From NCBI GenBank assembly GCA_009380005.1, contig WHSQ01000018.1, positions 1 through 50,037 of the forward strand: a stretch of 50,037 bases of DNA, given 5' to 3'. Position 1 is the first letter of the stretch. Each line of letters opens with the position of its first letter. Positions 13,513 to 19,133 of the stretch are shown here, one piece after another. The notes under the pieces are model-generated. The model searched no databases. It was not told the DNA's origin and saw only the letters and a list, made by a program, of their open reading frames with translations. Position numbers and translations under genes: made by a program. Source of the DNA: Actinomycetota bacterium. Its GTDB lineage: Bacteria; Actinomycetota; CADDZG01; WHSQ01.

Positions 13513-13565
13513 ATGCGTGTACCCCCTTTCCGCACGCGTGGCTCGGCAGCGGCTAGGATTGGGCT

Positions 13566-13656
13566 GCTCATCGAGAGCGGAGGAGGGTCCGGCCCGTCGA
13601 TCCCGCCGCAACCACCGGATCACCACCCGGCAGGTGCGAACCCCGGACGGATGAGC
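13566..13656 (+). promoter_or_regulatory. SAM-I (S-box) riboswitch aptamer
   Basis: The conserved S-box core is readable: P1 GCTCATC (13566-13572) pairs perfectly with GATGAGC (13650-13656); GAGAGC with GGAGG and GGG follows, then GGCCCG, a CCGCCGCAACCA segment, and the diagnostic GGTGC-GAA-CCCC. It lies just upstream of two MetE-half genes, the classic S-box target class. High S-adenosylmethionine should stabilise P1 and release the downstream terminator. Identification is from consensus memory; the downstream terminator/antiterminator pair supports it strongly. Confidence 0.92.
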
Positions 13657-13671
13657 GGCTTCGAGCTCCGA

Positions 13672-13700
13672 GCCTCCGCCGTCCGGGCGTGAGGCTTTTT
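13672..13700 (+). terminator. Riboswitch-controlled intrinsic terminator with antiterminator partner
   Basis: GCCTC-CGCC (13672-13680) pairs with GGCG-T-GAGGC (13686-13695), one bulged T, followed by TTTTT (13696-13700): an intrinsic terminator. CCGTCCGGG at 13679-13687, inside this hairpin, is exactly complementary over 9 bases to CCCGGACGG at 13642-13650 in the 3' part of the aptamer. The two foldings exclude one another, giving a transcriptional OFF switch at high SAM. Confidence 0.88.
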
Positions 13701-13731: not shown

Positions 13732-14706
13732 GTGGCGATCCGAACTACGTCCGCAGGGGCGTACCCCAAGCCCCCGGACGAGGGCCAGACGTTCGTGCTG
13801 CGCAAGACCTTGCAGGCGATGGACCGCGGCGAGGCGACTGCAGAAGACGTTCAAAGGGCGGTCGAGGACCTCGGCCGGCAGATGATCGAGGAGCAGGAGA
13901 AGACGGGCGTCGATCTCGTGACCCACGGTCATCCCGGTTGGGAAGACATCCTCACCCCGTTCGCTCGCCACATCGGCGGTTTCGAGATCGGTGGCCTGCT
14001 GCGTTGGTTCGACAACAACGTCTATTACCGGCGGCCCGTATCGGTTGGACGCATCGAGTGGCGCGGGCCTTCGTCCGTGGATGCGTTCAAGTCCGCCGAC
14101 TCGGTCGCTACGAAGCCGGTCAAGGCGGTCATCCCGGGCCCGATCACGTTCGCCCGGCTCTCCATCGACGAGTACTACAGCGACCACGACAAGTTCGTCG
14201 GGGCGATCGCCAAGGTGCTCGCCCAGGAGGCGTTCGAGCTGGAGGCGTCGGGCGCGGAGGTGATCCAGATCGACGAACCGGCCCTGCTCGACGCGCCGGA
14301 GGATCTCGCCCTGGCGCGTGAGGCTGTCGGGACCGTTACCGGCGAGCTGAATTCGGCTACGACGATCCTCGCCACCTACTTCGGGGACGCGAAGCGGCTG
14401 GGGGCCGAGCTGTTCGATCTCCCGGTCGATGGGTTCGCCCTGGACTTCGTCGCCGGCCCCGACAACTTCGAGCTCGTCAAGCAGTTCCCGAAGGACAAGA
14501 TCCTTCAGGCCGGCATCGTCGATGCTCGCAACACCAAGCTCGAGCCCGTGGAGGACATCGTCGACCTGGCGCAGAGGCTGTTGGAGAGCGTGGACGCCGA
14601 TCGGCTGTGGCTCGCGCCCTCCGCTTCGCTGGAGTTCCTTCCCCGCGAGAAGGCTCGTGCGAAGCTCGAGAGATTGACCGAAGCAGCCGGGGAGGTGGGA
14701 GCGTGA
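13732..14706 (+). CDS. MetE N-terminal-domain-like protein (stand-alone)
   Basis: A 324-residue (beta-alpha)8 protein of the methionine synthase/uroporphyrinogen decarboxylase superfamily. It resembles the N-terminal half of cobalamin-independent MetE: LATYFGDA, DGFALDFVAGPDN, AGIVDARNTKLEP and WLAPSASLEFLP fit that domain, and the catalytic zinc ligands are absent, as in the MetE N-half. In MetE this half contributes to binding the folate substrate. Starts at GTG 13732 after GAGGAGGAGGT. The zinc-containing half is encoded next with a one-base overlap, and both are under the SAM-I switch, so together they look like a split methionine synthase. Confidence 0.8.
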   Translation: MAIRTTSAGAYPKPPDEGQTFVLRKTLQAMDRGEATAEDVQRAVEDLGRQMIEEQEKTGVDLVTHGHPGWEDILTPFARHIGGFEIGGLLRWFDNNVYYRRPVSVGRIEWRGPSSVDAFKSADSVATKPVKAVIPGPITFARLSIDEYYSDHDKFVGAIAKVLAQEAFELEASGAEVIQIDEPALLDAPEDLALAREAVGTVTGELNSATTILATYFGDAKRLGAELFDLPVDGFALDFVAGPDNFELVKQFPKDKILQAGIVDARNTKLEPVEDIVDLAQRLLESVDADRLWLAPSASLEFLPREKARAKLERLTEAAGEVGA

Positions 14707-15698
14707 TGGCGGAACTTCACAAGCCGGATCTTCCGGGAGCGGGCCTCTGGACGACCTCGGTCGGCAGCTTCCCGAAGCCCGACTACATCATCAAGGCGCG
14801 TAGCCGGTTCGCGCGCAAGGAGATCAGCCGCGAAGAGCTGCGGGAACTCGAGAAGAAGGCCACGAAGGACTGGATCGACTTCCAGGAGTCGATCGGTACC
14901 GATCTGTTGGTCGACGGCGAGATGTACCGCGGCGACATGGTCGCCTACTTCGCCGAGGAGATGCCCGGGCTCGAGATGGGCGGTCTGGTTCGATCGTACG
15001 GCAACCGGTACTACCGGAAGCCCATAGCGACGGGGCCAGTCGGACGTGACGAACCGATCACCGTCGAATGGTGGAAGTACGCGCAGTCGCTGACGGACCG
15101 CCCCGTCAAGGGCATGCTTACCGGGCCCTACACGATCTGTGACTGGTCCTTCAACGAGCACTACGAGTCACGTCGCGACTTCGTGCTGGACCTTGCGAAG
15201 GCGATCCGCGACGAAGCGCTCGATCTGGAGCGTGCCGGCTGCAAGTACATCCAGATCGACGAGCCGGCAGCCTCCACCCGGATGGACGAGCTCGACCTCG
15301 TGACGGAGGCGATGGACATCGTTACCGAGCCGCTCACGGTGCACACGCTGACACACATCTGCTACGGCGACTTCCACCACGCCTACCCGAAGATGCTGGA
15401 CATACCGGTCGATCAGATCGACCTTGAGTTCGCCAACTCGGAGTACACGCTTCTGGAGGAGTTCGGTGAGCATCCCTTCACCAAGTACATCGGTCTCGGC
15501 GTCACCGACGTCCATTCACACCTGCTCGAGCTCGTCGACGACATCGCCGACGGGATCCGCAAGGTGATGAAGTACATCCCGCCCGAGAGGATCTTCGTCG
15601 ATCCCGACTGCGGCCTCAAGACCCGCTCGATCGACGAGGCCAAGGCCAAGCTCACCAACATCGCCAAGGCGGTAGAGATAGTCAGATCCGAGCTCTAG
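14706..15698 (+). CDS. Methionine synthase, MetE C-terminal catalytic-domain type
   Basis: A 330-residue zinc methyltransferase related to the catalytic C-half of MetE and to core-MetE/Mes enzymes. All zinc ligands are visible: H217 and C219 (THICYGDF), E241 (DLEFANS) and C302 (DPDCGLKTR). IDEPA around 184-188 is also family-typical. It should methylate homocysteine to methionine; the methyl donor (folate or a corrinoid protein) cannot be read. ATG 14706 uses the A of the preceding TGA; GTG 14703 is an alternative. A small hairpin TTCTTC (15743-15748)/GAAGAA (15753-15758) lies downstream without a T run. Confidence 0.88.
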   Translation: MAELHKPDLPGAGLWTTSVGSFPKPDYIIKARSRFARKEISREELRELEKKATKDWIDFQESIGTDLLVDGEMYRGDMVAYFAEEMPGLEMGGLVRSYGNRYYRKPIATGPVGRDEPITVEWWKYAQSLTDRPVKGMLTGPYTICDWSFNEHYESRRDFVLDLAKAIRDEALDLERAGCKYIQIDEPAASTRMDELDLVTEAMDIVTEPLTVHTLTHICYGDFHHAYPKMLDIPVDQIDLEFANSEYTLLEEFGEHPFTKYIGLGVTDVHSHLLELVDDIADGIRKVMKYIPPERIFVDPDCGLKTRSIDEAKAKLTNIAKAVEIVRSEL

Positions 15699-15824
15699 GA
15701 GCCACGGAGGCGCCCTGTTGCGGTCGGAACCATGTCTGATCTTTCTTCTCTAGAAGAACCGCATCCACAGCACGTGGGGCGACTCGGCGCCGTCGTCTGA
15801 TAATCGGTAGGCTGCAGCCACAAG

Positions 15825-15908
15825 ACAGGGGAGCCCGGTTGGGCTGAGAGGGCGACGGAGGTCGCCGACCCTTTGAACCTGATCCGGTTAACACCGGCGG
15901 AGGGAGGA
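15825..15908 (+). promoter_or_regulatory. TPP (THI-box) riboswitch
   Basis: The THI-box core is clear: GGGGAGCCC near 15828-15836, GGGCTGAGAGGG at 15841-15852, then ACCCTTTGAACCTGAT, CCGGTTAACACCGG and GCGGAGGGA ending near 15905. The 3' strand of the aptamer contains AGGGAGGA (15901-15908), which is also the ribosome binding site of the GTG at 15913, so thiamine diphosphate would hide it and block translation directly. Confidence 0.95.
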
Positions 15909-15912
15909 CCAC

Positions 15913-17319
15913 GTGAGCTCCGTGCAAGAGCGCCTCGAAGCCCTGCCCGCGTGGGGCATAGAGCCGGTTCCGGAAGAGCATCGCCATCTGTCCGGCGTCG
16001 ACCTGGCGATCCTCTGGGGAGACCTCGGTATCGGTCTGCTCGTGATGGTGACCGGCGCGCTCCTGGTGCCGGCGCTGGGCTTCTTCCAGGCCTTGGTCGT
16101 GATCGTCATCGGGACCGCCGTGGGCGTGGGGCTCCTCGCGCTTGCGGGCGTGGCCGGTGCCGACCATGGCGTACCGACGATGGTTCTGTTCCGTCCCGTC
16201 CTCGGCATCCGGGGGTCGTGGCTGCCCAGCGGGTTGAACGTCGTCCAGTTGATCGGATGGACCGCGGTCGAGCTGTGGGCGATGGCGGAGGTCGCGAACA
16301 TCGTGGCCCGCCGCTACTTCGACTTCTCGGCGCGCTGGTTCTGGTTGGCTCTGATCGCCGCGATCTGCGCTGCCCTGGCGATATGGGGGCCGGTCGGAGT
16401 CGCCCGCGTGTGGATGAAGAGGTTCGGTGCATGGATCATCGCCGGGATCTCTGCCGTGGTGACCGTGATGGTGCTCGCATCGGGCGAGACTCGATCGGCG
16501 CTGGGCGCCGCGGGGACGGGGGGGTGGCCCACCTTTGGCAGCGCGCTGGACCTCGTGATCGCAATGCCCATCTCGTGGCTTCCTCTGGTGGCCGATTACA
16601 ACCGGTTCGCGCGTGGTTCGCGCGGAGCATTCGGCGGTACGTTCATCGGCTACTTCATCGCGAACGTATGGCTGTTCGCCTTGGGGGCGATGCTCATCTT
16701 GGCCGGCGACGCATCGGCATCTCCCGCCGGCATCGCGGCTGGGATCCTCGCCGTGGGAGGCGGATCGCTGGCGGGTGTTTTGCTGCTCACCGGCCTGCTC
16801 TTCGGAGAAACGGACGAAGCCTTCGCGGATATCTACTCGGGGGCGGTGAGCATCCAGAACATCGTCCCGAAGGCATCCCAGAGGGTCCTGATCGCCGGCA
16901 TCACCGTGATCTCCGCCGCGCTCGCCGCGCTATTGACCATGACGGCGTACGAAGTGTTTCTGTTCCTCATCGGATCGGTCTTCGTTCCTCTCTTCGGCGT
17001 TCTGGCGTGCGATTACTTCCTCGCGCGCCACCGGCAGCTCGATCTTCGGGCGCTCTATGATCGCTCGGGCCCCTACTGGTACCAGAGCGGGATCCGGCTG
17101 ACTGCGCTGTTGCCCTGGTTCGCGGGCTTCACCGTCTATCACTGGATCGCCCCGACCGGCCCCGACTGGTGGATAGACCTGTGGAGCGGGACGTTCGGCC
17201 CGGGACTATCGACGAACGCGCCGTGGCTGGCGGCTTCGCTGCCTTCGTTTGCGGCGGCGTTCTTGCTGGCGTGGTTGGGCACTCGACTATCATCACGATC
17301 ACCCAAGAAAGAGGTGTAA
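15913..17319 (+). CDS. cytX: NCS1-family transporter, probable thiamine-precursor (hydroxymethylpyrimidine) permease
   Basis: A 468-residue integral membrane protein with about 12 hydrophobic segments of the purine-cytosine permease (NCS1) family. Recognisable elements are WGDLGIGLLVMVTGALLVP at the N-terminus, a Rossmann-free all-helical body, and PLVADYNRFARGSRG in the middle. The TPP riboswitch immediately upstream, with its 3' strand forming the ribosome binding site, indicates the cargo is a thiamine precursor such as hydroxymethylpyrimidine, as for CytX. Other NCS1 cargoes (cytosine, allantoin) are less likely given this control. No thi biosynthesis gene is adjacent. Confidence 0.88.
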   Translation: MSSVQERLEALPAWGIEPVPEEHRHLSGVDLAILWGDLGIGLLVMVTGALLVPALGFFQALVVIVIGTAVGVGLLALAGVAGADHGVPTMVLFRPVLGIRGSWLPSGLNVVQLIGWTAVELWAMAEVANIVARRYFDFSARWFWLALIAAICAALAIWGPVGVARVWMKRFGAWIIAGISAVVTVMVLASGETRSALGAAGTGGWPTFGSALDLVIAMPISWLPLVADYNRFARGSRGAFGGTFIGYFIANVWLFALGAMLILAGDASASPAGIAAGILAVGGGSLAGVLLLTGLLFGETDEAFADIYSGAVSIQNIVPKASQRVLIAGITVISAALAALLTMTAYEVFLFLIGSVFVPLFGVLACDYFLARHRQLDLRALYDRSGPYWYQSGIRLTALLPWFAGFTVYHWIAPTGPDWWIDLWSGTFGPGLSTNAPWLAASLPSFAAAFLLAWLGTRLSSRSPKKEV

Positions 17320-18644: not shown

Positions 18645-19133
18645 ATGACGATCCACCGAGAGCGAATGGAGGTGCCGGGGTTGGCAGCAAAGAAGACAAC
18701 CGGTCGCAAGAGGTCTACTGGTCGTAAGACCACACGTAGATCTCCTGCGCGGAAGTCGACTGCGCGCAAGTCCACCGCACGACGGTCGACGGGTCGCAAG
18801 AAGTCCACGGCTCGCAAGAGCACGGGACGGAAGAAGTCGACCGCGCGTAAGTCGACGGGTCGCAAGAAGGCTACGGCTCGTAAGAGCCCTGCCCGCAGGA
18901 AGAAGTCGACGGCGCGCAAGTCGACGGGTCGCAGGAAGTCCACCGGCCGGAAGAAGTCGACCGGTCGCAAGAAGTCCACGGCTCGTCGCAAGAGCACGGG
19001 ACGAAAGAAGTCCACGGCTCGTCGCAAGAGCACGGGACGAAAGAAGTCCACGGCTCGTCGCAAGAGCCCGGCTCGCAAGAAGTCCACGGCTCGTCGCAAG
19101 AGCGCGGGACGTAAGAAGTCCACGCGTCGTTAG
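18645..19133 (+). CDS. Lysine/arginine-rich repetitive histone H1-like DNA-binding protein
   Basis: A 162-residue protein almost entirely of short repeats of the type KKSTARRKSTGR, KSTARK and SPAR, consisting mainly of K, R, S, T, A and G. It resembles the tail of actinobacterial HU (HupB/HupS-type) and chlamydial Hc-type histone H1-like proteins, but the HU fold itself is absent, so it is a free-standing tail. ATG 18645 has AGGAGGT upstream; a TTG at 18681 with GGAGGT before it would give a protein starting AAKKTTGRKRSTGRK. It should bind DNA or RNA non-specifically. Its stop overlaps the convergent ftcD gene by 4 bases. Confidence 0.8.
   Translation: MTIHRERMEVPGLAAKKTTGRKRSTGRKTTRRSPARKSTARKSTARRSTGRKKSTARKSTGRKKSTARKSTGRKKATARKSPARRKKSTARKSTGRRKSTGRKKSTGRKKSTARRKSTGRKKSTARRKSTGRKKSTARRKSPARKKSTARRKSAGRKKSTRR
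18969..19130 (+). repeat. 36-bp in-frame tandem repeat within the histone-like gene
   Basis: Units begin AAGAAGTCCACGG at 18969, 19005, 19041, 19077 and 19113, an exact 36-base period (12 codons, KKSTARRKS-x-GR) with only a few substitutions; the last unit is cut by the stop. Shorter, less regular 15- to 18-base repeats precede it from about 18740. Copy number is likely to vary between strains. Confidence 0.9.

Follow-up and report, generated by a model that had tools for sequence, protein, structure and literature searches.

A probable methionine synthase encoded by two adjacent genes in Actinomycetota and other bacteria, likely to depend on folate and to be repressed by SAM

Introduction

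Among enzymes with two barrels, MetE is the one usually cited as a product of gene duplication (PMC539065). A two-protein version, split MetE, was described by Price, Deutschbauer and Arkin in 2021, mainly from archaea and from the bacterium Sulfobacillus, and is defined by two separate proteins of at most 400 aa, one matching the N half of MetE and the other the C half (PMC7857596). Genomes that have it usually contain no other known methionine synthase, and the Pyrococcus furiosus proteins PF1268 and PF1269 are reported to form a complex (PMC7857596). The survey accepted catalytic halves at a phmmer score of at least 200 bits against P. furiosus PF1269, and N components only if Meth_synt_1 outscored Meth_synt_2, a rule that, as its authors note, loses true members such as AMET1_0515 (PMC7857596). 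Our literature search returned no further paper on split MetE and no biochemical data on the bacterial form.

Here, we describe two adjacent genes in a window of 50,037 nucleotides (the whole stretch of DNA analyzed, from contig WHSQ01000018.1 of an Actinomycetota bacterium). Their sequences indicate that they most likely encode a real, conserved two-gene methionine synthase, which would act as a folate-dependent complex and be repressed by SAM. A sequence-only reading of the window had drawn a comparison with core-MetE/Mes enzymes; the arrangement belongs instead to split MetE, a type already on record (PMC7857596) and separate from the core/Mes enzymes. What is new is its bacterial breadth, its regulation and its bearing on the origin of MetE.

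Results

Locus layout and upstream RNA

The genes and the elements that precede them are arranged as follows.

13565..13657, + strand: SAM-I riboswitch aptamer (S box), Rfam RF00162, 63.3 bits
13670..13697, + strand: intrinsic terminator hairpin, likely expression platform (direct folding, -20 kcal/mol, z -4.22)
13732..14706, + strand: ORF1, metE N-half, GTG start, TGA at 14704-14706, 324 aa
14706..15698, + strand: ORF2, metE C-half, catalytic zinc/homocysteine barrel, ATG start, 330 aa

The sequence-only reading had the two genes overlapping by one base and sharing one SAM-I switch, and both points hold: base 14706 is common to ORF1 and ORF2 (sequence TGATG), and the aptamer exceeds the RF00162 gathering score of 44.4 bits. 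With a methionine gene downstream and a terminator behind it, the aptamer qualifies as a member of this family, with predicted SAM binding. It is the sole SAM-I match in the 3.8-Mb genome, and each of the nine Actinomycetota relatives that were scanned likewise has a SAM-I switch ahead of its pair. The terminator hairpin is followed by a run of T (13696-13700), and its 5' arm can alternatively pair, in a longer fold, with the 3' part of the aptamer (CCGGACGG); as modeled, these two segments can form a putative antiterminator. A consensus terminator scan of the leader gave no match, though direct folding gave a strong bulged hairpin, and the bulge is probably the reason. Folded as a whole, the 191-nt leader, in whose fold the alternative pairing occurs, does not differ significantly from shuffled sequences (z -0.25), and we do not count this fold as evidence.

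Downstream of the pair and unrelated to it, a TPP riboswitch (15817-15923) directly precedes a gene for a CytX-like (hydroxymethylpyrimidine) transporter (15913-17319). A TPP switch also lies 3' of the split MetE pair at L007, L008, L009, L010 and L013, and this neighbourhood is thus conserved. Elsewhere in the window, 18645-19133 encodes a highly repetitive Lys/Arg/Ser-rich protein of 162 aa that by eye resembles histone H1.

The N-half

ORF1 scores about equally on Meth_synt_1 (PF08267; 111.3 bits, residues 89-285) and Meth_synt_2 (PF01717; 116.6 bits), because the two MetE barrels are homologous. On these scores it fails the published N-component rule, as do eight of nine relatives, so that most of the bacterial clade would escape the survey. 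We take the rule as a limit of the screen rather than as part of what defines split MetE, and we assign ORF1 by tree: in a joint tree of N and C halves, all N-halves form one clade (100/100) that includes ORF1. The AlphaFold model of ORF1 (pLDDT 93.1) has T. maritima MetE (1xpg) as its best PDB match; the closest solved structures are T. maritima, N. crassa and C. albicans MetE and the MesD-type enzyme 3RPD, with UROD folds far lower. A grouping with unrelated UROD-fold methyltransferases, which the sequence-only reading had named as a result that would count against it, is not what we find, as ORF1 falls inside the MetE N-halves.

At the zinc-site positions, ORF1 carries A214, Y216, D238 and A298, a dead zinc site, in agreement with the earlier description of the first gene as a MetE N-half without zinc ligands. 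Y216 and D238 correspond to Y243 and D265 of E. coli, and in T. maritima an overhaul of the N-barrel zinc site has been described that involves Tyr232 and Asp253 (PMC539065). Two folate contacts of the N-barrel are exchanged relative to T. maritima MetE, Lys104 for Arg91 and His111 for Tyr98. We propose that ORF1 is a beta/alpha barrel with a disabled zinc site that serves as the folate-side subunit.

The C-half and its folate site

ORF2 scores 277 bits on Meth_synt_2 (PF01717) and has all four zinc ligands, H217, C219, E241 and C302, exactly those by which the second gene had been read as the catalytic half. The homocysteine residues S21, E72 and D185 are kept as well. Against NF003317, a model related to the PF1269 criterion, it reaches 392.5 bits, under the cut-off of 406, and in the joint tree it falls into a clade (100/99) with the C-halves of bacterial split pairs and of fused MetE.

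Folate-site positions were taken from T. maritima MetE (PMC539065). ORF2 keeps W147 (the pterin-stacking Trp539), DMV77-79 and H270 (His672), along with R101 (Arg493) and R104 (Arg496) of the polyglutamate groove. The pterin Trp and His are present in every split (61/61) and fused (19/19) C-half and in none of seven stand-alone paralogues. R101 is invariant in the bacterial type 1 to which the pair belongs; the groove Arg and the DMV Asp are common to this type and fused MetE, and rare or absent in archaea and in a second, more divergent split type (type 2). The pterin-binding Glu583 of T. maritima MetE (Glu605 in E. coli) is Thr191 in ORF2, and this Glu occurs in 0/61 split versus 19/19 fused C-halves. 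Given this exchange and those at Arg91 and Tyr98 of ORF1, pterin recognition must differ in detail. To judge from its residues, the pocket is of MetE type, with pterin recognition altered in a way common to all split enzymes sampled.

Other methionine and folate genes in the genome

The source genome is a 3.8-Mb draft in 639 contigs, listed as 100% complete. The sequence-only reading had singled out metH as a gene to look for and a full-length MetE elsewhere as an argument against a role for the pair; the genome yielded no full-length MetH, no MetH-type corrinoid modules and no fused MetE. For the last, we took as canonical a single polypeptide of at least about 680 aa above the curated TIGR01371 cut-off (929.95 bits); the best match reaches 301 bits and covers the C-half only. 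A short MTHFR homologue of 279 aa (51.8 bits) is present; it is divergent and not adjacent to the pair, and its alignment retains the Glu and Asp motifs of E. coli MetF.

Two further stand-alone Meth_synt_2 proteins are encoded at L003 1462-2550 (contig C55) and L004 733-1860 (C48). The C55 paralogue is related to MesD, with about one third identity to 3RPD as judged by eye from the alignment; it has intact zinc ligands, is without the folate-site Trp and stays under its NCBIfam cut-off (249 vs 392 bits). MesX (PF08908), the partner protein of MesD, gave no match in the source genome and likewise none in the control genomes. The pair agrees with split MetE as published in size (324 and 330 aa), half matches, adjacency and zinc and homocysteine residues, and it would be the sole known methionine synthase of a genome that has no MetH and no fused MetE and contains these two uncharacterised paralogues.

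Distribution and gene pairing

In 75/75 sampled pair loci, the N-half and C-half genes are adjacent, on the same strand and with the N-half first, the domain order of fused MetE; so constant an arrangement is not due to chance. In one scan of named genomes, nine Actinomycetota MAGs had the pair, which also turned up in Chloroflexota, Armatimonadota and Omnitrophota. Across 296 Actinomycetota genomes, the type seen in the window occurs chiefly in the family that the window comes from, and only isolated cases lie outside it. Of the 16 genomes of this family, 14 carry the pair or a piece of it, 13 have MTHFR homologues and none has fused MetE or full MetH. The near-complete G070 of the same family gave no match for pair, fused MetE, MetH or MTHFR; it may be auxotrophic for methionine or rely on an unknown route. 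In Chloroflexota, the pair is present in about 10 of 151 genomes, and full MetH was seen in only one, from Omnitrophota, of the 18 genomes reached through loci.

In five genomes, the pair has a neighbouring gene for MTHFR (L136) or for a bifunctional homocysteine methyltransferase/MTHFR (L017, behind a SAM-I switch, and L025; at L144 and L145 the fusion gene adjoins type-2 pairs). The type-2 form is found in other Actinomycetota families, one Chloroflexota genome and archaea. It was observed at L126, L127, L128, L109, L144 and L145 and is related to a type that occurs in archaea. What looked like a fused type-2 protein in G138 (L124) we interpret as a frameshift, because part of its N-half is in another frame.

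Trees of the two halves

Fused MetEs form one clade (100/100) in both the C-half and the N-half tree, and no split pair falls inside it. In the C-half tree, a further node (100/100) unites this clade with the bacterial split C-halves and leaves out archaeal pairs and type 2; a topology in which the fused C-halves lie outside every split C-half is rejected (p 0.0007). The N-half tree also groups bacterial split and fused N-halves, at weaker support (94/89, a branch not starred), and a single clade of all split N-halves is not rejected (p 0.24). Tests do not separate a fused clade nested in the bacterial split clade from one sister to it (p 0.41 for C-halves, 0.52 for N-halves). The archaeal C-halves are paraphyletic by themselves, which confounds a further topology test. 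Segments present in the fused enzyme towards the end of the N-barrel are missing from the split proteins, which carry no linker remnant.

Discussion

We consider it very probable, from sequence comparison, that ORF1 and ORF2 together are a two-subunit, B12-independent 5-methyl-tetrahydrofolate:homocysteine methyltransferase that serves as the methionine synthase of the cell. ORF2 would bind zinc and homocysteine, and ORF1 would dock on it face to face, like the N-barrel in MetE, and close the folate site. The short MTHFR of the genome would supply 5-methyl-tetrahydrofolate, whose methyl group would pass directly to the zinc-bound homocysteine, and SAM would shut off transcription via the SAM-I riboswitch and its terminator. 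The sequence-only reading had left the choice between a two-subunit folate enzyme and a repurposed partner. We favour the former because of the orthology of the N-half, the conserved pairing, the kept Trp, DMV and His, the neighbouring MTHFR genes, and the lack of MetH and fused MetE.

Could the methyl donor nevertheless be something other than folate? ORF2 might be a core (Mes-type) methionine synthase with a corrinoid or other non-folate donor, for which ORF1 would be an accessory docking protein. In vitro, stand-alone MetE-like barrels take the methyl group from methylcobalamin (PMC7857596, PMC7005905), and the missing pterin-binding Glu of all split C-halves fits such a donor. However, ORF2 keeps the pterin Trp and the His of the DIHS motif, which all seven stand-alone paralogues lack, and it groups with fused MetE apart from them. 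The MTHFR genes beside the pair in five genomes and the failure to find MetH-type corrinoid modules in the source genome likewise speak against this alternative, which we regard as unlikely.

Is the pair the product of a fission, as the word "split" suggests? The sequence-only reading was right about the two-gene structure; the word should not be taken to mean a fission, as the trees of the catalytic half favour a two-gene ancestor. The reading that an ordinary fused MetE came apart recently, without special evolutionary meaning, could draw on the unstarred N-half branch and on the all-split N-half clade that is not rejected. Yet a fission product is expected inside the fused clade, where neither tree places a split pair; the rejected topology of the C-halves and the absence of a linker remnant and of the segments near the N-barrel end also argue against it, and we hold it to be very unlikely. 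By these sequence comparisons, the two-gene state is more likely ancestral, since the fused catalytic half joins the bacterial split clade to the exclusion of archaeal split MetE, and it is probably a remnant from the origin of one-piece MetE. All outer lineages have two genes, so the most economical history has a single fusion, with the caveat of the long stem of the fused clade. A fuller scenario, to which we give about even chances, is that the bacterial two-gene enzyme descends from a pre-fusion MetE, in which the duplicated N-barrel was a separate subunit and was kept so in archaea and in this clade. It would have been fused once in bacteria, giving rise to the MetE of bacteria, fungi and plants, and the fused enzyme would then have exchanged Thr for Glu, Arg for Lys and Tyr for His and acquired the linker. 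Should the two-gene state indeed be the older one, the second barrel was at first a subunit of its own and only later became part of one chain, a point that can be tested with living enzymes such as the present one.

For uncultured bacterial lineages that have neither MetH nor fused MetE, the two-subunit enzyme is a likely methionine synthase, and the two-gene form explains how annotation pipelines and surveys can overlook or mislabel it. That the ORF1-ORF2 complex would methylate another thiol, with methionine made by a different enzyme, has in its favour the two additional Meth_synt_2 proteins of the genome, one of them MesD-related. It is the least probable reading, given that the homocysteine and zinc residues are all conserved, that the only SAM-I switch of the genome precedes the operon, that the MesD-like paralogue stays below its cut-off and that no MesX was found, in a search whose control was also without match.

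Four aspects go beyond split MetE as described. The pair belongs to a wide bacterial clade, in Actinomycetota, Chloroflexota, Armatimonadota and Omnitrophota, that the published filter mostly misses. In the window's family it is under SAM-I control. Its folate pocket has the Trp, DMV and His but never the pterin-binding Glu, and the trees join the catalytic half of fused MetE to this bacterial clade without archaeal split MetE.

Compared with known systems, the pair shares with the core enzymes MesA-D one catalytic barrel, about 330 aa long and with zinc ligands of the HCEC type (PMC7857596, PMC7005905). Those enzymes, however, have no N-half partner and use non-folate donors, whereas ORF2 has an always adjacent N-half partner and the folate-site Trp and His. 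With fused MetE of E. coli and T. maritima (PMC539065), the pair has in common both barrels, the zinc/homocysteine site, the folate-site Trp, DMV and His, and an N-barrel zinc site disabled alike, with Tyr and Asp at two ligand positions. It differs in being two polypeptides with no linker, in a shorter loop after the QIDEPA motif and in the exchanges of Glu583 for Thr, Lys104 for Arg and His111 for Tyr. Closest is archaeal split MetE, likewise two adjacent genes for proteins of about 320-380 aa, N-half before C-half, with an HCEC zinc site and, in the pairs sampled, mostly Thr for the pterin Glu and Arg for Lys104. In contrast to these, the window pair is bacterial and in its family SAM-I-controlled, it resembles fused MetE, and not most archaeal pairs, in R101 and the DMV Asp, and in the tree its catalytic half joins fused MetE instead of the archaeal pairs.
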